This document shows positions 12,128 through 19,922 of a stretch of 64,000 bases of DNA, piece by piece; positions within the stretch are counted from its first letter, which is position 1, and every line of letters starts with the position of its first letter. Location: assembly GCF_001428405.1 (NCBI RefSeq), contig NZ_LMSL01000040.1, forward strand, positions 258,388-322,387, written 5' to 3'. Origin of the DNA: Frateuria sp. Soil773 (GTDB lineage: Bacteria; Pseudomonadota; Gammaproteobacteria; Xanthomonadales; Rhodanobacteraceae). The notes below the pieces were generated by a model that was not told the DNA's origin, did no database searches, and saw only the letters and a program-made list of their open reading frames with translations. The translations under genes and the position numbers were made by a program.

Positions 12128-12373
12128 GGGCTCTCCCGGACGGTGCAATCCGCGCACCTTAAGCCGCAATGGCCGAGGATGTGTAAGCAAACCGTCGATG
12201 CGGGGATCGCCTGTGCCGGAGCCATCGGCACCGCGGCGCCGCAACCGGGGTGGCCGGCCATGCGTTCCGGCAACGGATCGTTTCCTTCACGCCCCTACAA
12301 GACCGGACGGCGTACCCCTATGTTGGCGGCCAGCCGCGCAACGGCGCGGACATCCATGCACAGGAGCATTCCC

Positions 12374-13075
12374 GTGATCGAACGCAGACCTTTCGACAGC
12401 CTGGGCGGTGCCGACCACGGCTGGCTCGACGCCAAGCACCATTTCTCCTTCGCCGGCTACCACGACCCGAACCGCATGGGCTGGGGCGCGCTGCGCGTAT
12501 GGAACGACGACACCATCGCGCCGCAGACCGGCTTCCCGCCGCATCCGCATGCGGACATGGAGATCATCACCTATGTCCGCGAGGGCGCAATCAGCCATCG
12601 CGACAGCCTCGGCAACGAGGGTCGCACCCAGGCGGGCGACGTGCAGGTGATGAGCGCCGGCAGCGGCATCACCCATGCCGAGTACAACCAGGAGGCGGAC
12701 ACCACGCGGATCTTCCAGATCTGGATCATCCCCGACACCCAGGGCCAGCCACCCGCGTGGGGCACCCGCCCCTTCCCCAAGGGCGACCGCTCCGGACGCT
12801 TCGTGGCGCTGGCCAGCGGCTTCAAGGAAGACGCCGATGCCCTGCCCCTACGCACCGATGCGCGCGTCCTCGGCGCCACCCTCAAGGCCGGCGAAAGCGC
12901 GGAATACACCATGGCCGCCGGCCGCTACGGCTACCTGGTGCCGGCCAAGGGCGCGGTCGAGATCAACGGCGTAAGGCTCGACGCGCGCGACGGCGCGGCG
13001 ATCCGCGACGAAGCCGTGCTGCGCGTCACCGCGCTGGAAGACGCGGAACTGGTGCTGGTCGACGCGGCGCCGTGA
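12374..13075 (+). CDS. Pirin-family bicupin protein (YhhW-like)
   Basis: About 233 residues with the pirin signature: HGWLDAKHHFSFAGY, then FPPHPHADMEIITYV (metal-binding His-x-His and His/Glu), and SAGSGITHAEYN. The E. coli homologue YhhW is a quercetin 2,3-dioxygenase in vitro; the physiological role is unclear. A GTG at 12374 is proposed as the start: an AGGAG at 12362-12366 sits at the right distance, and family members begin close to this point (VIERRPF). An in-frame ATG at 12356 would add six residues and has no such site. Much longer upstream readings are antisense to other genes. Confidence 0.88.
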   Translation: MIERRPFDSLGGADHGWLDAKHHFSFAGYHDPNRMGWGALRVWNDDTIAPQTGFPPHPHADMEIITYVREGAISHRDSLGNEGRTQAGDVQVMSAGSGITHAEYNQEADTTRIFQIWIIPDTQGQPPAWGTRPFPKGDRSGRFVALASGFKEDADALPLRTDARVLGATLKAGESAEYTMAAGRYGYLVPAKGAVEINGVRLDARDGAAIRDEAVLRVTALEDAELVLVDAAP

Positions 13076-13224: not shown

Positions 13225-14457
13225 CTAACGCCCACGCATCGCGCTGGCCGGGGACACGCGGGTCGCCAGCACCGACGGGAACAGCGTGGCGAGCAGGCTC
13301 AGGGCGAACACCGCCAAGGCGCCGTAAAGGATGTACTGGAACGGCAATGCCGTACCGGACCGGTAGACGAGCAGCGCATGGTTGGCACTCACGGCCAGGC
13401 CCCCTCCTAGGACGACGCCGGCCGCCGTAAGTACCGCGTTCTGGCCCAGGAAGTAGCCGAACACGGCCGTCCTGCTGGCGCCCAGCGCGCGCATGACGCC
13501 CACCTGCTTGCGCCGCTGCTGCACCCAGAACGAGGTGAGCCCGAAGATGCCCAGGCCCGTGAAGACCATGGTCAGTATCGCCGCCAGCAACAGCGTCCAG
13601 GCGGTAGTGGTCTCCGCGGAGAAATAGGCCCTGCGCATGTGGGCGAACGAATCGACCGAGACTTTTTCCGCCGTTGCGTACTCGGTGCGGAGAATGGAAT
13701 CGATCGACGCGATGAGCTTTTCGCATGCGTCGGCCTCGACGCAGCCGGGCGCCTTCAGCCGAATGGCGAACTGGCTCACGAAGGGTGCGTTGACGGCGGT
13801 GACCGCACCCAGCGGAAAGACCACCGCGGCGAACGGATTGGCCGCATCCATGCTGGGCCGCAGGATGTCGTCGATCACACCGACCACGTGGTACGCGCGC
13901 TGCGGCCCGTAGAGCAGCGCCCCCGCCGCGTGTCCACCGGGCCATAGCTGCTCCGCCAGGGATTTCGTCACCAGGACGGCATCGCCGGTGGGCGTGAACA
14001 GGTCCAGGTCCGCTCCCACGTAGTCGTCGTGCTGCAGCGGCCGACCGGCAATCACGCGCAGATCCAGCGCGCGGGCGAACCCTTCCAGCCCGAAATAGCT
14101 GGATGCGGACACGGTATCCGTATCGTGGTTCTGCGGCACGGTGGAGAAACTGGCCACGAAATTGGCCTCCGAAAGCGGCGTCGCATTGGTCGGCGCGGCG
14201 GCGGCGACCTGCGGCAGCGCCCTGATCCGGCTCAGCGCCGAGCGCGCGGCATCGGCGTTGTCCGCGGGATTCCCGCCGCCGATCCGGGCCACCAGCAGGG
14301 CAGTCTCGTCGATGCCGTTGGGCAGCGAGACTTCCCGCATGTGGCGTACGGTCAGGTGGATCACGTTCACCAGTACGGCCATCGCCACGATGATTTCCAG
14401 GACGATCAGCGTCGCGGACAGGCGATGGCGCTTGAGGGCGGATACGGCTGGAGACAT
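13225..14457 (-). CDS. FtsX/MacB-type ABC permease, second of a pair
   Basis: A 410-residue membrane protein with the MacB/FtsX layout. One N-terminal TM (LIVLEIIVAMAVLVNVIHLT) is followed by a periplasmic MacB-core-like domain of about 210 residues. Three C-terminal TMs follow: TLLLAAILTMVFTGLGIFGL, then one after a VMRALGASRTAVFGYF coupling helix, then YGALAVFALSLLATLFPSVL. The protein ends with a typical RVSPASAMRGR tail. MacB-class proteins do mechanotransmission or peptide and lipoprotein handling rather than substrate channelling. They need an ATPase subunit, and none is encoded nearby. The gene lies 15 bases after the first permease and is the last gene of the cluster. Confidence 0.85.
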   Translation of the reverse strand: MSPAVSALKRHRLSATLIVLEIIVAMAVLVNVIHLTVRHMREVSLPNGIDETALLVARIGGGNPADNADAARSALSRIRALPQVAAAAPTNATPLSEANFVASFSTVPQNHDTDTVSASSYFGLEGFARALDLRVIAGRPLQHDDYVGADLDLFTPTGDAVLVTKSLAEQLWPGGHAAGALLYGPQRAYHVVGVIDDILRPSMDAANPFAAVVFPLGAVTAVNAPFVSQFAIRLKAPGCVEADACEKLIASIDSILRTEYATAEKVSVDSFAHMRRAYFSAETTTAWTLLLAAILTMVFTGLGIFGLTSFWVQQRRKQVGVMRALGASRTAVFGYFLGQNAVLTAAGVVLGGGLAVSANHALLVYRSGTALPFQYILYGALAVFALSLLATLFPSVLATRVSPASAMRGR

Positions 14458-14472
14458 GGCTGGTCCGGATGC

Positions 14473-15771
14473 CTAGAGGAGTTTCAGGTTGCCCGCCGGG
14501 GATATCCGGCAGGCCCGCCATGCGGGAAGCAACGCTGCCAGTACCGCGGCGCCGATCGAAAAGACGATGCACCAGCCCAGCGTCGTGACGCCGATCCCGA
14601 TCAGGTGCGCGTAGCGGGACGGCTGCGCCGCTATCGCCATGAGGCTTGCCCAGGCAATGAACGCCCCGACGAGGCCTGCGGCCAGGCCCACCACCGCCGA
14701 TTCGATCATCAACTGCGCAAAGACGTCGGCTCGCCTGGCTCCCAGGGCGCGCCTCAACGACGTCTCGCCGCTGCGTCGCATGAACTTGGCCAGCAGCAGC
14801 GCGATGGAATTGACGATGCCCACGATCAGGAACACGAGCGCCAGCCAGCGCTGGGTGCTGGCCTCGTCGGGAACCGCGCTGTGCGAGGCCAGCCATTTCA
14901 CGAGCGGGGTCACCGCCGCCGTCGCCGGATCGAGGCTCGCGCCGAGCGAGTTCTGCTGGCTTACGAACCGGGCAAGGAAATCCCGGAACCCGCGCTGCTG
15001 CCCGGAATCCTCCAGTATCGTCCAGAGCGACAGCCAGGCACAGGTGGACGCCTGCGGGCTCGTCTCCCCTCCGGTGCATTCCAGTTGCCGCGGCTGCATC
15101 GCCATTGCCCTGGCCACGCTGAGCGGCACGTAGATGTCGATGGCCGACCCGAACGGGTCGCCGCCCAGGTCCGACGCGTAGAAGCGGGGCTGCGGCTGCC
15201 AGTCCCGCGCCACGCCGACGATCGACAGGCTGTGGCCGGCGACGCTGATGATGCGCCCCACCGCGCTGCCTTCCCCGAACAAGCGTCGTGCCAGCTCGTC
15301 GGAAATGACCACCTGGAAGGTGGGATCGGTATCGGCGTCCTTCGACCAGGCGCGGCCCTCGCGGAACCCGATGTCGAAGGTGTGGAAGACGGCGCTGGTG
15401 GCGATCAGGGCATTGGCCCGCCGCGGATAGCGCTCCTGCCCCGTGGGCGGCAGGCTGACGTTGGACAGAGCCAACGGGCTGAGCGGGTACCGGCTGGCGC
15501 GCAGGATCTGAAGAGCCGTATCGAAATTGAGCAACTCCCCATTGGCGGCTTTGCCGTCCTTGTGGGCATGGCCCGGTGCCAGGGTGCCCAGCTCGATGTG
15601 GAAAAGCTGGCCGCGCCGGCTCGGCACCGGATCGGCGCCCAGGCTGTCGACGACCGTCTGGGTGGCGGCGGAGGTACCCGCGCCCACCGCCAGGCCCGCG
15701 ACCATCAGCAGGGTCATCGCCGGGGACGAGACGAGGCTGCGCAAAGCCACTCGGAAATAGTAGAGAAACAT
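14473..15771 (-). CDS. FtsX/MacB-type ABC permease, first of a pair
   Basis: A 432-residue membrane protein. The N-terminus MFLYYFRVALRSLVSSPAM leads into TM1 (TLLMVAGLAVGAGTSAATQ). A long periplasmic domain follows, with DELARRLFGEGSAVGRII, a MacB-core feature. Three C-terminal TMs (around VFLIVGIVNSIALLLAKF, VVGLAAGLVGAFIAWASL and GWCIVFSIGAAVLAALLPAW) complete it. The cytoplasmic coupling segment SLRRALGARRADVFAQLM lies between TM2 and TM3. The ATG at 15771 is preceded by AGAGG and preferred to an upstream ATG. It pairs with the next gene, perhaps as a heterodimer. The matching ATPase is missing from the neighbourhood. Confidence 0.84.
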   Translation of the reverse strand: MFLYYFRVALRSLVSSPAMTLLMVAGLAVGAGTSAATQTVVDSLGADPVPSRRGQLFHIELGTLAPGHAHKDGKAANGELLNFDTALQILRASRYPLSPLALSNVSLPPTGQERYPRRANALIATSAVFHTFDIGFREGRAWSKDADTDPTFQVVISDELARRLFGEGSAVGRIISVAGHSLSIVGVARDWQPQPRFYASDLGGDPFGSAIDIYVPLSVARAMAMQPRQLECTGGETSPQASTCAWLSLWTILEDSGQQRGFRDFLARFVSQQNSLGASLDPATAAVTPLVKWLASHSAVPDEASTQRWLALVFLIVGIVNSIALLLAKFMRRSGETSLRRALGARRADVFAQLMIESAVVGLAAGLVGAFIAWASLMAIAAQPSRYAHLIGIGVTTLGWCIVFSIGAAVLAALLPAWRACRISPAGNLKLL

Positions 15772-15824
15772 GCCGCAACCTCTGGAGACAGCTTCGCGCA
15801 CGATCATGGAAAGCCCATTGCCGG

Positions 15825-16364
15825 CTACCTGCCTGGGACCACGGGCTCGGGCGATGGCGGTACGGGCAGGCCGCCCGGAGGCGGCGGTGCCGGTTCCGGG
15901 CCCTTCGCGAGGGACCTGAATACGGCCAACCGCTCGTCGTCGAGACGGCGGCGCAGCGGCGCTCCGTTGCCGTCGGCAAGCTGGACGGTAACGGCCCGTT
16001 TTCGCCCGAGCAGGGCAAGCAGGTCCCGTGGCGTCCTGGCCCGCTGCCCATCCACGGAGAGCAGCCGCTCGTTGGCGCGAAGCCCCCAGAAGCCGTCATC
16101 GGGCGACGGCTCGATCCGGTACGAGCCATCCTGCTGCCGCACGAACGTCAAGGCATGGCCCTGGTCGCAGACCCGCAGCATGTCGTCGGTGGCAAGGACA
16201 CCGCAGTCCTGCCTGCCCGCGATACCGGGCGTTCCGGCGGAAGCGACCGGCAGATGGCCTAATACGGCAAGCAACGGGAGCAGCCACACGGCCCATGCCC
16301 GCCTCCGCCGCCGTTGATGGCTGGCCCGGACGTTTCCGGCGCGGATCGACTGAAAACGGATCAT
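15825..16364 (-). CDS. Membrane-anchored PDZ-like protein with proline-rich tail
   Basis: A 179-residue protein. A very basic N-terminus (ASHQRRRRRAW) precedes a hydrophobic segment (AVWLLPLLAVLGHLPVASAG, residues ~24-44), which is a signal peptide or signal anchor. The exported part has two Cys residues (QDCGVLATDDMLRVC), which may form a disulfide. A PDZ-like segment follows, with GLRANERLLSVDGQRARTPR standing in for the ligand-loop and strand pattern. The last ~25 residues are Pro-rich (EPAPPPPGGLPVPPSPEP). The ATG overlaps the stop of the ATP-grasp-like gene (ATGA), so it is translated as part of the cluster. A role in docking the peptide product at the permeases is conjecture. Confidence 0.7.
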   Translation of the reverse strand: MIRFQSIRAGNVRASHQRRRRRAWAVWLLPLLAVLGHLPVASAGTPGIAGRQDCGVLATDDMLRVCDQGHALTFVRQQDGSYRIEPSPDDGFWGLRANERLLSVDGQRARTPRDLLALLGRKRAVTVQLADGNGAPLRRRLDDERLAVFRSLAKGPEPAPPPPGGLPVPPSPEPVVPGR

Positions 16365-17254
16365 GGTGCCAAAGCCTCCTCCCGCCGGCTTGCCGCTGGC
16401 CGCGACGGCGCCTGGACGGCGCAGAGCGAGGCCAGCCAGCGTTGCATGGACGCGCGTGCCGACGCGTCTTCCGCCACGCTACCCAGGCGCGTCGAGCAGG
16501 CATGGAAGGTGAGCACGCCATCGTCGCCGTAATAGAACAGCATCTCGCACAGGGGACAGTCGAACAGGTCGCTGACCAGGCGGGTCACATGCCGCAGGCG
16601 TTCCGGCTCGGGAATCCGCTCGCCGCGCAGTGGCCTGGTGACGATTTCGTCACCGATGCGTGCGCCGAGCAATGGGATGCCCTGCGGCCGCTCGACGTAG
16701 AACCTGTTGCGCGTCCCTGCCGGGCCATCGATGACGTCGCCATCCCTCCAGCTGAAATACGACCAGATGGACTTGCGGATCGGATCGCGCAGCGCGCTGG
16801 TGTCGGGAATACTTTCGCCGAAGCCGAACACGTAGCGCGGCACCGCGACGGCGATCCCGCTCCTGGCGACTACGTGCCACTGCGTGGGAAGCGGCAGTTG
16901 CACCAGGGACGCACCCTTGGCGGCCCAGGGATAGCACACCGTGCCTGCCGGCCACAGGCTGACCATGGCGCGGTGGAACCACGATGGCGAAAGGTTTCCC
17001 CAGCCGGCCACGTGTGCGGACAGCGACCTGGCATCGATGTCGAAGAGCCGGTTGATCACGTAGCCGTAGGCACGCAGTTCGCCGGCGCTTTCGCGAAGCA
17101 GCACGCGCGGGAGCGTCTTGCCGTGATCCACGTGGACATGGCTGCAAAGCTCGGCCAGCCCCATGCGGACCGGGCCGCCGTCCGCCGCCGCCGCGACGAT
17201 CTTCAGCAGCGGATCTCCCTCCGAGTGCAGCAGAAGCACGGCTGGCCTAGGCAT
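16361..17254 (-). CDS. Putative ATP-grasp-like protein of the HExxH cluster
   Basis: A 297-residue soluble protein with no family recognised with certainty. The N-terminal third (AVLLLHSEGDPLLKIVAAAA, then GYVINRLFDID near residues 64-74) follows the pre-ATP-grasp pattern of RimK-like and peptide-maturation ATP-grasp proteins. Those commonly show a GVxNRL segment there. The C-terminal part (DLFDCPLCEMLFYYGDDGVL) sits where the ATP/Mg-binding strands would be, but the usual E-x-N metal ligands are not evident. It could be a degenerate or non-catalytic ATP-grasp. Its ATG overlaps the end of the HExxH gene by eight bases, so it is probably co-translated with it. The fold assignment is inference. 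Confidence 0.6.
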   Translation of the reverse strand: MPRPAVLLLHSEGDPLLKIVAAAADGGPVRMGLAELCSHVHVDHGKTLPRVLLRESAGELRAYGYVINRLFDIDARSLSAHVAGWGNLSPSWFHRAMVSLWPAGTVCYPWAAKGASLVQLPLPTQWHVVARSGIAVAVPRYVFGFGESIPDTSALRDPIRKSIWSYFSWRDGDVIDGPAGTRNRFYVERPQGIPLLGARIGDEIVTRPLRGERIPEPERLRHVTRLVSDLFDCPLCEMLFYYGDDGVLTFHACSTRLGSVAEDASARASMQRWLASLCAVQAPSRPAASRREEALAP

Positions 17255-18434
17255 ATTCGACGTCCTCCTCCTCGACGCGCACCCTGGCGCGGATCGCTTC
17301 CTGCATGGCATCCAGGCGCTCGAGCAAAACGGCGTCGACGCCTTCCGCGGTGATCAGGAAATCGGTCATGGACTGATTGCTCAAGAAACCGGAGACGAAT
17401 TGCAGCGTCCGCGCACGGATTCTCGCCTGGTCGTGCTCCGGCGCCGAAAGCAGCCCGGCCTCGCCGGCGGCCTCCATCAACTTGAAGCAGGCGAAATAGA
17501 CGAAGACCGCATGGATGAACGAGGAATTGGGAATCGGATTGCCGGACCACGGCGATACCGGCCGCACCTCGTTGCCCCTGTGGCAGAAGCTCCCGTGCAC
17601 GTACTCGCACGCCGCCAGGTAATTGTGGATGGACTCGTGGAGTATCTTTTCGGCCGCCATCGCGGCCGAGAACTCGGGCAGGTGCGGATTGAGCATGCGG
17701 ATCGCGCCGATCTGCCGGGTCATGTGCTCCGACGCGAAGATGGATGCGCCGGGTACGGCATCGGACACCGACTCGAGCGATTTCCTCACGATGATCCGGC
17801 GGGTGAATTCGCGTATCAGGCGCCCGTAATACGGCATCGAGGCGTCGATCAGTTCCAGCCCGGCCTGCAATACTTCGACCGCCCGCGTTTTCTCGGTTTC
17901 GTCCAGGGGAAGCGGCGGTTGCGACAGCACGCCGCTGGCGTAGTCCATGGATCTTGCCAACGGGCTGTCGAAATCGATGGCGATGACGTCGCCGATGCGG
18001 GGCGCCGGTATCACCTCGACGCTGCCTCCCTGATGCAGGAAGGAATAGTCGCCCATGGGCGACCAAATGCGTCCCTTCGCCTCGTCGAGCGGGCAAGGCA
18101 TACCGCCCAGCGCACTGGCTGCTATCCGCTCGCTGTCGAGCAGTTCTTCAAGTTGCGCCAGGCTCGTCGAATGGACCCCTTCGTTGCGCTCCTTCTCCCA
18201 CAGGGCGAGCCATTCCCCCAGGTCGGCGCTGAGCAGGAGCCGTGCCTGGTGGACGGCGCCGAGTTGTTCGTACGACGCGGTCAGGCAGGCCGCTTCCGGC
18301 GTACCGCCGATCGCCTGGGCCAGCCGGTCGCGCTGCAAGGCCAGGCGGGCAAGCTGGAGGCGTTCGAGGATACCGTCCGGGTCGAGCCCGGTTTCCACGA
18401 CCTGGAAGATTTCCCTGGGCGAAGGTGTGGCCAT
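17247..18434 (-). CDS. HExxH-motif putative peptide-modification enzyme
   Basis: A 395-residue protein with an HExxH metal site at residues 266-270 (EKILHESIHNYL). A second conserved block follows at about 293-312 (VSPWSGNPIPNSSFIHAVFV); its His308 is a likely third ligand. This spacing and the PW...P.....H sequence match the HExxH-domain family found with RiPP precursors (TIGR04267-like, from memory). Some members of that family are reported to act as metal-dependent hydroxylases of peptide side chains rather than as proteases. The N-terminal ~200 residues are helical and may bind the precursor. The gene follows the candidate precursor across a strong hairpin and is followed by the overlapping ATP-grasp-like gene. 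Confidence 0.8.
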   Translation of the reverse strand: MATPSPREIFQVVETGLDPDGILERLQLARLALQRDRLAQAIGGTPEAACLTASYEQLGAVHQARLLLSADLGEWLALWEKERNEGVHSTSLAQLEELLDSERIAASALGGMPCPLDEAKGRIWSPMGDYSFLHQGGSVEVIPAPRIGDVIAIDFDSPLARSMDYASGVLSQPPLPLDETEKTRAVEVLQAGLELIDASMPYYGRLIREFTRRIIVRKSLESVSDAVPGASIFASEHMTRQIGAIRMLNPHLPEFSAAMAAEKILHESIHNYLAACEYVHGSFCHRGNEVRPVSPWSGNPIPNSSFIHAVFVYFACFKLMEAAGEAGLLSAPEHDQARIRARTLQFVSGFLSNQSMTDFLITAEGVDAVLLERLDAMQEAIRARVRVEEEDVEYA

Positions 18435-18483
18435 GATGCGTCCATGCAGGTGGAGTGAGGCCGGGCATGTCCGGCGACGCGAA

Positions 18484-18514
18484 AGGGAAGCCGCATCGAC
18501 GATGCGGCTTCCCT
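18484..18514 (-). terminator. Perfect 14-bp hairpin between precursor and enzyme genes
   Basis: The arms agggaagccgcatc (18484-18497) and gatgcggcttccct (18501-18514) pair perfectly around a 3-base loop. In the leftward transcript the hairpin comes six bases after the precursor stop codon and is followed by TTTC. This is the usual place for a partial terminator or mRNA-stabilising stem that makes the precursor more abundant than its processing enzymes. Confidence 0.75.
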
Positions 18515-18519
18515 AGGCC

Positions 18520-18786
18520 TTACACGTCGAACGAATACGACGCGTTGCCCGCATCGGCCAGCGCCGTAGCGGACGTGAAGGCCGGGTCGTAATGCCAGTG
18601 GCCGTCGCCGGTATCGACATCCACGTGCTTGGACATCGCGGTCAGGTTCAGCGTCGAGGCTCCGAGAGCGCCCGCCGTGTCGTTCGACAACTGCACCGAG
18701 TTGGTGTGCTGCACGGGAGCGGCGGTGGCCACGCCGGCAATGGCCATCGTCAGGGCCGAAATCACCACGGATGTAGACTTCTTCAT
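18520..18786 (-). CDS. Candidate RiPP precursor with Sec-type signal peptide
   Basis: An 88-residue peptide. Residues 1-22 look like a Sec signal peptide (MKKSTSVVISALTMAIAGVA) with an ATA/A cleavage site. The mature part is Thr/Ser/Ala/Asn-rich and has no Cys. It contains a dense Asp/His block, HVDVDTGDGHWHYDP, at residues 54-68. It ends in SYSFDV. The ATG at 18786 has a textbook AGGAG nine bases upstream, and the gene is first in the cluster. Its size, first position, the hairpin directly behind it and the adjacent HExxH enzyme suggest a modified peptide, with the Asp/His block as a possible core. Alternatively it is a plain small periplasmic metal-binding protein. Confidence 0.7.
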   Translation of the reverse strand: MKKSTSVVISALTMAIAGVATAAPVQHTNSVQLSNDTAGALGASTLNLTAMSKHVDVDTGDGHWHYDPAFTSATALADAGNASYSFDV

Positions 18787-19277
18787 AAACTGCTCCTTGC
18801 GTTTGGTTGGAAGTGACTACACGCCAGGGTGCGTTTGCGCTTCGATTGCCTTCCCTGGCGAATCCAGCTTTAACACGGGATGAATCAACTCACAATGAAG
18901 CCGCCAGTCAGGTTCTCGTATCGAGAAATATTACGAAAATCCTGAAGCTATTGAGATGCAAGACATTATTCCGGACTTCGAATGAATCGGACATACGCTG
19001 CATCGTAAAATGTTGCGCCACAGTCGCACCGATCTGGCTACCACGTCTCACTATTGCTTCGCAAAAATCGTGGATTACACGCGAATAATCGCTTGGCATC
19101 TCCAATGGCCCATCTCGCAAGCATCAGCGCAAATGCAATCGCTATTGCGAAATGAAGGCATTTCAGGAAATACCGGTATGCGCCTGATTTTTCATGCAAT
19201 GGCTTTCCGATCACGCTGAAGCAGGAATATTCGCGCCGCATTCCCGCACGATCGTGGCCTGCTGACAGATCCCCGCT
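18787..19277. promoter_or_regulatory. AT-richer upstream region of the HExxH cluster, no gene seen
   Basis: These 491 bases are clearly richer in A and T than the flanking DNA. Short open frames on both strands show no coding character: no ribosome-binding site, no family resemblance, and they overlap one another. The part next to the precursor must hold its leftward promoter. One weak candidate is TTGTGA and TAAAGC separated by 17 bases in the leftward sense, read from about 18894 to 18866. The rest may be regulatory sequence or a remnant of transferred DNA. Confidence 0.4.
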
Positions 19278-19922
19278 CTATTTGCCCGGCCCGTCCGTCG
19301 ACGTGGCGGCATCCGCACGTGCCCGCGGCAGATGCCAGCCATGGCGGATCGCCATGTAGCGCAGCCCGAAGCAGGCGCCCGCGCCGGCCAGCGTGGTCGC
19401 GGTCGGCGGCAGGTGCAGCAGACTGCCCAGCACCACCACCGCGGCGCCGGCCAGTGCGGCCACTGCGTACAGGTCGGCGCGCAGCACGGTGGGAATCTGC
19501 GTCACCAGCACGTCGCGCAGCATGCCGCCGCCGACGCCGGTGAGCATGCCGAGCAAGGCGGCCATCGCCGGATTCAGGCCGAAGGCCAGCGCCTTCTGTG
19601 CGCCGGCGACGGCGAACAGGGCCAACCCGGCGGCATCGGACAACTGCACCGGGTTGCGCATGCGCTCGATGTCGGCGTAGCGGTAGAAGGTGACGAGACC
19701 GGCCAGCACGGAGACGCCGAGATAGCGCCAGTCGGCGATCGCCGCCGGCGGGATGGCGCCGATCAGCAGATCGCGGGTGATGCCGCCCGCGTTGCCGGCG
19801 GCGAACGACAGCACCAGCACGCCGAACAGGTCCAGCTCGCGCCGGACCGCCACCACCGCGCCGCTGAGCGCGAACACGAAGGTGCCGGCGAGATCGAGCA
19901 CCAGCAACAGGGTATGCAGCAT
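19278..19922 (-). CDS. TRIC-type cation channel (UPF0126, YadS/YicG family)
   Basis: A 214-residue inner-membrane protein of seven TM segments built from two related halves. Each half carries the TRIC glycine pattern: FALSGAVVAVRRELDLFG with GNAGGITRDLLIG in the first, and VAGAQKALAFGLNPAMA with TGVGGGMLRDVL in the second. Prokaryotic TRIC proteins form homotrimeric monovalent cation channels. The ATG at 19922 fits the usual family N-terminus (ML..L...GTFVFALSG). It is monocistronic and lies just upstream of the AT-rich region of the HExxH cluster, with no evident link to it. Confidence 0.88.
   Translation of the reverse strand: MLHTLLLVLDLAGTFVFALSGAVVAVRRELDLFGVLVLSFAAGNAGGITRDLLIGAIPPAAIADWRYLGVSVLAGLVTFYRYADIERMRNPVQLSDAAGLALFAVAGAQKALAFGLNPAMAALLGMLTGVGGGMLRDVLVTQIPTVLRADLYAVAALAGAAVVVLGSLLHLPPTATTLAGAGACFGLRYMAIRHGWHLPRARADAATSTDGPGK

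Follow-up and report, generated by a model that had tools for sequence, protein, structure and literature searches.

Six genes that run in the same direction on the minus strand (18786 to 13225) of a 64,000-nucleotide stretch of Frateuria sp. Soil773 (contig NZ_LMSL01000040.1; hereafter, the window) form a candidate cluster for a ribosomally synthesized and post-translationally modified peptide (RiPP), comprising a small precursor, an HExxH enzyme, a grasp-fold protein, a PDZ-like protein and two FtsX-type permeases (Table 1). On balance, we lean towards the view that the cluster makes a RiPP in which a predicted HExxH oxygenase beta-hydroxylates core His and Asp residues of a precursor that bears a signal-type leader, with a likely degenerate grasp protein as the predicted docking partner. 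An earlier reading of this DNA, made from the sequence alone, had proposed a RiPP-type cluster at this position, and the recurrence of the peptide-HExxH-grasp set in 19 distinct loci supports that proposal; the six close or overlapping leftward open reading frames (ORFs) that it listed all lie where it placed them.

In the proposed mechanism, the grasp protein would bind the precursor at both the leader and the C-terminal F-D-V tail, through the surface on which a peptide ligase receives its substrate and with no ligation; the HExxH enzyme would then beta-hydroxylate His and Asp in the HVDVDTGDGHWHYD block of the core; and the modified peptide would exit the cytoplasm through Sec and, in the envelope, be acted on by the pair of FtsX-type permeases. 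Support is strongest for the oxygenase step; grasp docking comes second and a metal-binding product last. The genes and their recurrence, the HMM match of the enzyme, the agreement of the predicted folds, the co-occurrence and fusion of HExxH and grasp, the conserved precursor tail and the cores specific to enzyme clades are observed, and the chemistry with its sites, the loss of ligation, the docking role, Sec export and any binding of metal are inferred.

The HExxH enzyme and its recurrence with grasp genes

The motif HESIH occupies residues 266-270 of the window enzyme, and the SPWSGNPIPNSSFIH block is also present; both motif and block are thus as the sequence-only reading described them. 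That reading also suggested a search with TIGR04267: the hidden Markov model (HMM) does match the protein (E 2.2e-8), although the score of 34.3 bits lies under the curated cutoff of 40. All 21 rows of our enzyme alignment (A1) match TIGR04267 at E <= 0.001, and H266, E267, H270 and H308 are invariant across them. HExxH is found in all 20 enzymes of the loci, and the strict SPW...HA.F pattern in 16. The predicted model of the window enzyme has the fold of the solved HExxH oxygenases and is closest to ChlB-HExxH. The protein is a predicted Fe/alpha-ketoglutarate-dependent oxygenase.

The 19 loci are the window, L006, L008-L010, L012-L022, L034, L036 and L038; L011, L033, L035 and L037 duplicate L006, L008, L015 and L019 and are not counted. 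Named records come from Stenotrophomonas, Xanthomonas, Dyella, Luteibacter, [Pseudomonas] hibiscicola, a marine gammaproteobacterial metagenome-assembled genome (MAG) and a Bacteriovoracaceae MAG. The small gene beside the enzyme is conserved, as the sequence-only reading would require: an ORF with a signal-like start adjoins the enzyme gene in 19/19 of these close loci, lying 3' of it in L022 and 3' of a fused enzyme gene in L038. A grasp homologue is likewise present in every one of the 19. Three other loci, L023, L039 and L040, were excluded; their HExxH proteins are distant (phmmer, 39.1 bits for L023, 32.2 and 23.2 for L039, no match for L040; profile scores for the group, 73.3, 49.4 and 47.4 bits), and they have no grasp match. 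At 8271-11744 of L039, two distant HExxH genes stand beside a radical-SAM-like gene and a 98-residue ORF, a ChlB-like kind of cluster.

The HExxH and grasp genes belong together as a pair, and the set is rare. Among 398 genomes of the order, the grasp protein was found in eight and HExxH in nine (apparently the same draw); the same eight genomes carry both, with best HExxH scores of at least 295 bits, and the ninth, G742, has distant matches (73 and 49 bits) that adjoin a gene whose CxxxCxxC start looks, by eye, like that of radical SAM proteins. A direct search of 20 genomes recovered the grasp protein in the same eight and in none of the 12 others; wherever grasp was seen in the genomes searched, HExxH was present too. 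HExxH matches occurred in 3/369 genomes of the class (one distant) and 3/398 of the phylum. In L038 (12237-14411; genome G611), the two proteins are fused in a single ORF of 724 residues (HExxH aligned over 72-398, grasp over 446-700). Beside this ORF lie one precursor and another HExxH-grasp pair, this one not fused, and the stretch of L038 examined showed no FtsX pair.

Precursor peptides and their cores

Our tally comprises 23 precursors from 18 loci, including a second one in L012. A signal-like start, judged by a simple count of charge, hydrophobic stretch and AxA, was present in 22/22 precursors scored, which suggests that the window peptide may be exported through Sec. P0027, a metagenome homologue 78% identical to the window peptide, keeps residues 1-19, AMSKHVDVDTGDGHWHYDPA and SYSFDV, and the linkers between them diverge. 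FDV or FNV ends 20 of the 23 precursors, and the remaining three end in FII, FDA and FDVE; the L022 peptide ends in FGF. As a control, F[DN]V was found at the end of only 19 of the 1415 ORFs of 70-130 residues in the loci, with the duplicates L011, L033, L035 and L037 still taken in, and all 19 are precursor ORFs (three from duplicate loci).

The core type tracks the enzyme clade, but the tails do not. His-run cores resembling HH[S/D]DS-x-GSHHHH occur in nine loci (L006, L008, L009, L010, L012, L014, L015, L016 and L034), the enzymes of which form one clade (support 0.986), and cores resembling CTxYSSGGTxC occur in five (L013 and L017-L020), with enzymes in a separate clade (support 0.938, or 1.000 for L017-L020 without L013). 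Two further precursor-like peptides lie beside members of the close HExxH clade: one with a Gln run in L021 (9347-9625), the record of which is a MAG, and one with an Asn run in L022 (9049-9387). The Gln-run core is suggestive, because PflC and PosC are reported to hydroxylate Gln runs (PMC12636437).

The alternative that survives best concerns function and is compatible with the proposed mechanism: the product might be an envelope metal-buffering peptide similar to the bufferins, retained in the periplasm with modified His and Asp rather than released as a natural product. The signal-like starts and His-rich cores would fit such a role, as bufferins are described as carrying Sec signals and chelating copper (PMC12452194), and beta-hydroxy His/Asp peptides, if truly formed, are candidate metal binders. 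However, the FtsX pair, present in 16 of the 19 loci, suggests further handling, as does the Peptidase_M3 gene of L016 and L034, and no metal-related gene was found in the window operon with Pfam; we regard metal buffering as somewhat unlikely.

The grasp-fold protein and rival reactions

Graspetide ligases (PsnB, MdnB and PruB) fill the first 11 places among the Foldseek matches of the grasp model, and the ATP-grasp ligase fold is present in the model. No ATP-grasp family HMM matched, either among 18 alignment rows searched with Pfam or among five proteins scanned with NCBIfam. The last ATP-grasp strand, placed by strand order, reads [F/Y]-x-A-x-S in 17 of 18 rows and FGFIS in the other, which would put Ala and Ser at the positions of the metal-binding Glu and Asn; the corresponding motif in the fused homologue is FYSFN. 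The catalytic ligands, and with them ligation, thus appear to have been lost, and this likely degenerate ATP-grasp protein would serve as a docking partner of the HExxH enzyme. The earlier label "ATP-grasp-like" holds for the predicted fold, even though those ligands seem to be missing.

An active ligase would instead yield a graspetide that is hydroxylated and also linked through side-chain esters or amides. The Foldseek ranking favors this possibility, and Asp, Ser, Thr and Lys are available in the cores; nevertheless, the missing HMM matches and the apparently replaced ligands make it improbable, whereas a graspetide-type ligase of the same genome retains both Glu and Asn. This separate ATP-grasp ligase lies outside the window (L051, G000:C10:36158-36928), scores 179.5 bits with TIGR04187, under the cutoff of 350, and keeps an FFLEIN motif.

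The main reaction could also be oxidative C-terminal trimming, in which the HExxH enzyme would cut at the F-D-V tail and leave an amide, by analogy with the action of PflC and PosC at ARMD. Here, the conserved precursor end does parallel the ARMD motif of PflA (PMC12636437), but F-D-V stands at the extreme end, up to ~30 residues from the core, and the enzyme clade goes with the variation of the core and not with that of the tail, and we find trimming quite implausible as the main reaction. A zinc protease that processes the peptide is the least probable of all, even though HExxH is a zincin motif and PflC reportedly hydrolyses its peptide in the absence of the leader (PMC12636437).

Several observations weigh against beta-hydroxylation with grasp docking. 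On the enzyme side, these are the TIGR04267 score below cutoff and the weak sequence match to ChlH (E 0.011). On the peptide side, the window core contains no homopolymer run, the exact F-[DN]-V end is missing in L019, L038, L021 and L022, and the Sec signal call comes from a simple count. In the fold match of the grasp model, inositol-phosphate kinases and LysX score within 1 Z of the graspetide ligases, a tie, and the fold is therefore no proof of a peptide-ligase origin; in addition, the apparent ligand loss is read from strand order, and neither hhalign nor MAFFT recovered the Glu/Asn correspondence. Finally, some of the genomes found with profiles A1 and A2 also contributed to building them, so that matches in several of these genomes are expected.

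Gene layout, accessory genes and known systems

The ATG of the peptide gene is preceded by AAGGAG. The grasp-like ORF was listed as 16361-17311 on the minus strand; its most likely start, judging from the sequence, is the ATG at 17254, which overlaps the HExxH stop and gives 297 residues, and the PDZ-like gene in turn overlaps the grasp stop. Upstream of the precursor, positions 18790-19260 have a GC content of 49%, against 69% for the window, and may be a promoter site or the mark of an insertion. A hairpin between precursor and enzyme could keep the precursor message above the enzyme message. A stem of at least 8 bp was found between the two genes in 11 of the 16 loci tested, matched by at most 3/200 shuffles, and no notable stem was found in the other five (L036, L016, L034, L020 and L019); the 16 are the 19 loci less L022, L038 and L008, the last because of its overlapping genes.

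Table 1. Features of the six-gene set and its flanks in the window.
Feature	Position	Strand	Basis
Precursor peptide gene, 88 aa	18520-18786	-	ORF call; homologues adjoin enzyme in other loci; P0027 78% identical
Signal-peptide-like leader, residues 1-23	18718-18786	-	Charge, hydrophobic stretch, AxA by simple count; residues 1-19 identical in P0027
Probable core, residues 50-69, AMSKHVDVDTGDGHWHYDPA	18580-18639	-	20/20 residues identical in P0027, flanking linkers differ
C-terminal tail SYSFDV, residues 83-88	18523-18540	-	6/6 residues identical in P0027; F-[DN]-V ends 20/23 precursors
14-bp hairpin, possible attenuator	18484-18514	-	z -4.33 for 18435-18530 (96 nt); 0/200 shuffles
HExxH protein, 395 aa, predicted Fe/alpha-ketoglutarate oxygenase	17247-18434	-	HMM, motif, predicted fold
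Grasp-fold protein, likely degenerate ATP-grasp, predicted docking partner	16361-17254	-	Predicted fold; fused to HExxH in L038
PDZ-like protein, 179 aa, signal-like start	15825-16364	-	Weak PDZ_6 match; window only
FtsX/MacB_PCD permease 1, first half of ADOP model	14473-15807	-	HMM
FtsX/MacB_PCD permease 2, second half of ADOP model	13225-14457	-	HMM
Pirin-type gene flanking the set	12290-13072	+	
Gly_transporter-domain gene flanking the set	19278-19922	-	

Of the accessory genes in the sequence-only reading, both permeases were confirmed by FtsX/MacB_PCD matches. The PDZ-like gene was also found, with a weak PDZ_6 match (18.5 bits against a cutoff of 27, E 0.0018), but it was found in none of the other 18 loci and does not belong to the conserved set. 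The absence of the FtsX pair from L021 and L022 says little, because these records stop within ~1 and ~3 kb of the grasp gene. A motif scan of the loci revealed no ABC ATPase adjoining the pair; matches were found in L013 (~1.8 kb beyond the pair), in the excluded L023 and in L014, where an ORF of 712 residues (194-2332), ~7.6 kb upstream of the enzyme, has a start that resembles, by eye, a bacteriocin-type peptidase-ABC exporter. A Methyltransf_24-type gene is present in 11 of the 19 loci, namely L036, L038 and the full set of nine with His runs, whereas the window and all five CTxY loci lack one; in L015 (12047-12847; Xanthomonas sp. GPE 39), the methyltransferase gene is interrupted by a stop. 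The Peptidase_M3 genes, which follow the FtsX pair (L016, 15558-17360; L034, 2442-4457), could encode processing enzymes.

HExxH RiPP clusters (ChlB, Pfl/Pos, Bpm and Pes; PMC12636437, PMC13060819) and, in MNIO systems, RiPP precursors with signal peptides (PMC12452194) are already known. A signal-type precursor combined with an HExxH protein, a degenerate grasp protein and an FtsX pair was not found described in the open-access papers searched (most subscription journals lay outside this scope), which agrees, within those papers, with the earlier statement that no such cluster had been described. Residue choice by HExxH enzymes is reported to be not yet predictable (PMC13060819); the 19 loci, in which one oxygenase clade meets very different cores with a common leader type and tail, would constitute a natural experiment on this choice. 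A peptide-ligase fold seemingly turned into a recognition subunit is also of interest, with a natural fusion at hand. Only tentatively do we propose a new class of Sec-exported RiPPs, in which His, Asp, Gln or Asn residues, in runs or alternating, would become beta-hydroxylated metal-binding arrays through an HExxH enzyme dependent on a non-catalytic docking subunit derived from a ligase.

Among the closest known systems, ChlB/ChlH (PDB 8s5f) is a radical SAM-HExxH fusion that requires a preinstalled cyclophane, whereas the window enzyme is free-standing with a grasp partner, and Pfam and NCBIfam searches of the six cluster proteins, which apply to the following comparisons as well, gave no radical SAM match. 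PflC and PosC of Pseudomonas similarly stand next to a precursor that carries a conserved motif at its C terminus, and their Gln-run substrate recalls the L021 core; however, the Pfl/Pos clusters are described as having a nitrile-hydratase-type leader and an MNIO fused to a nitroreductase (PMC12636437) in place of the grasp protein and the signal-like leader. PesO, of the nitrilobacillin cluster, is likewise an alpha-ketoglutarate-HExxH enzyme reported to act on a RiPP precursor whose C-terminal motif is conserved (PMC13060819), but its cluster has an MNIO and an Asn-synthetase-like protein, neither of which was matched here. The grasp protein differs from the graspetide ligases PsnB, MdnB/C and PruB in its lack of a family HMM match and in its apparent Ala and Ser at the metal-ligand positions. 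The two permeases match the halves of the duplicated ADOP permeases (TIGR03434; 146.7 and 142.2 bits, with the full-length cutoff of 622.3 not reached) but are encoded here by separate genes. Bufferins also have a signal-peptide-bearing precursor ahead of the modifying enzyme (PMC12452194), and no MNIO/DUF692 match was found in the window cluster, unlike in bufferins; signal-like leaders are described as rare among bacterial RiPPs (PMC12452194), and the 19 loci would add another RiPP group that carries them.

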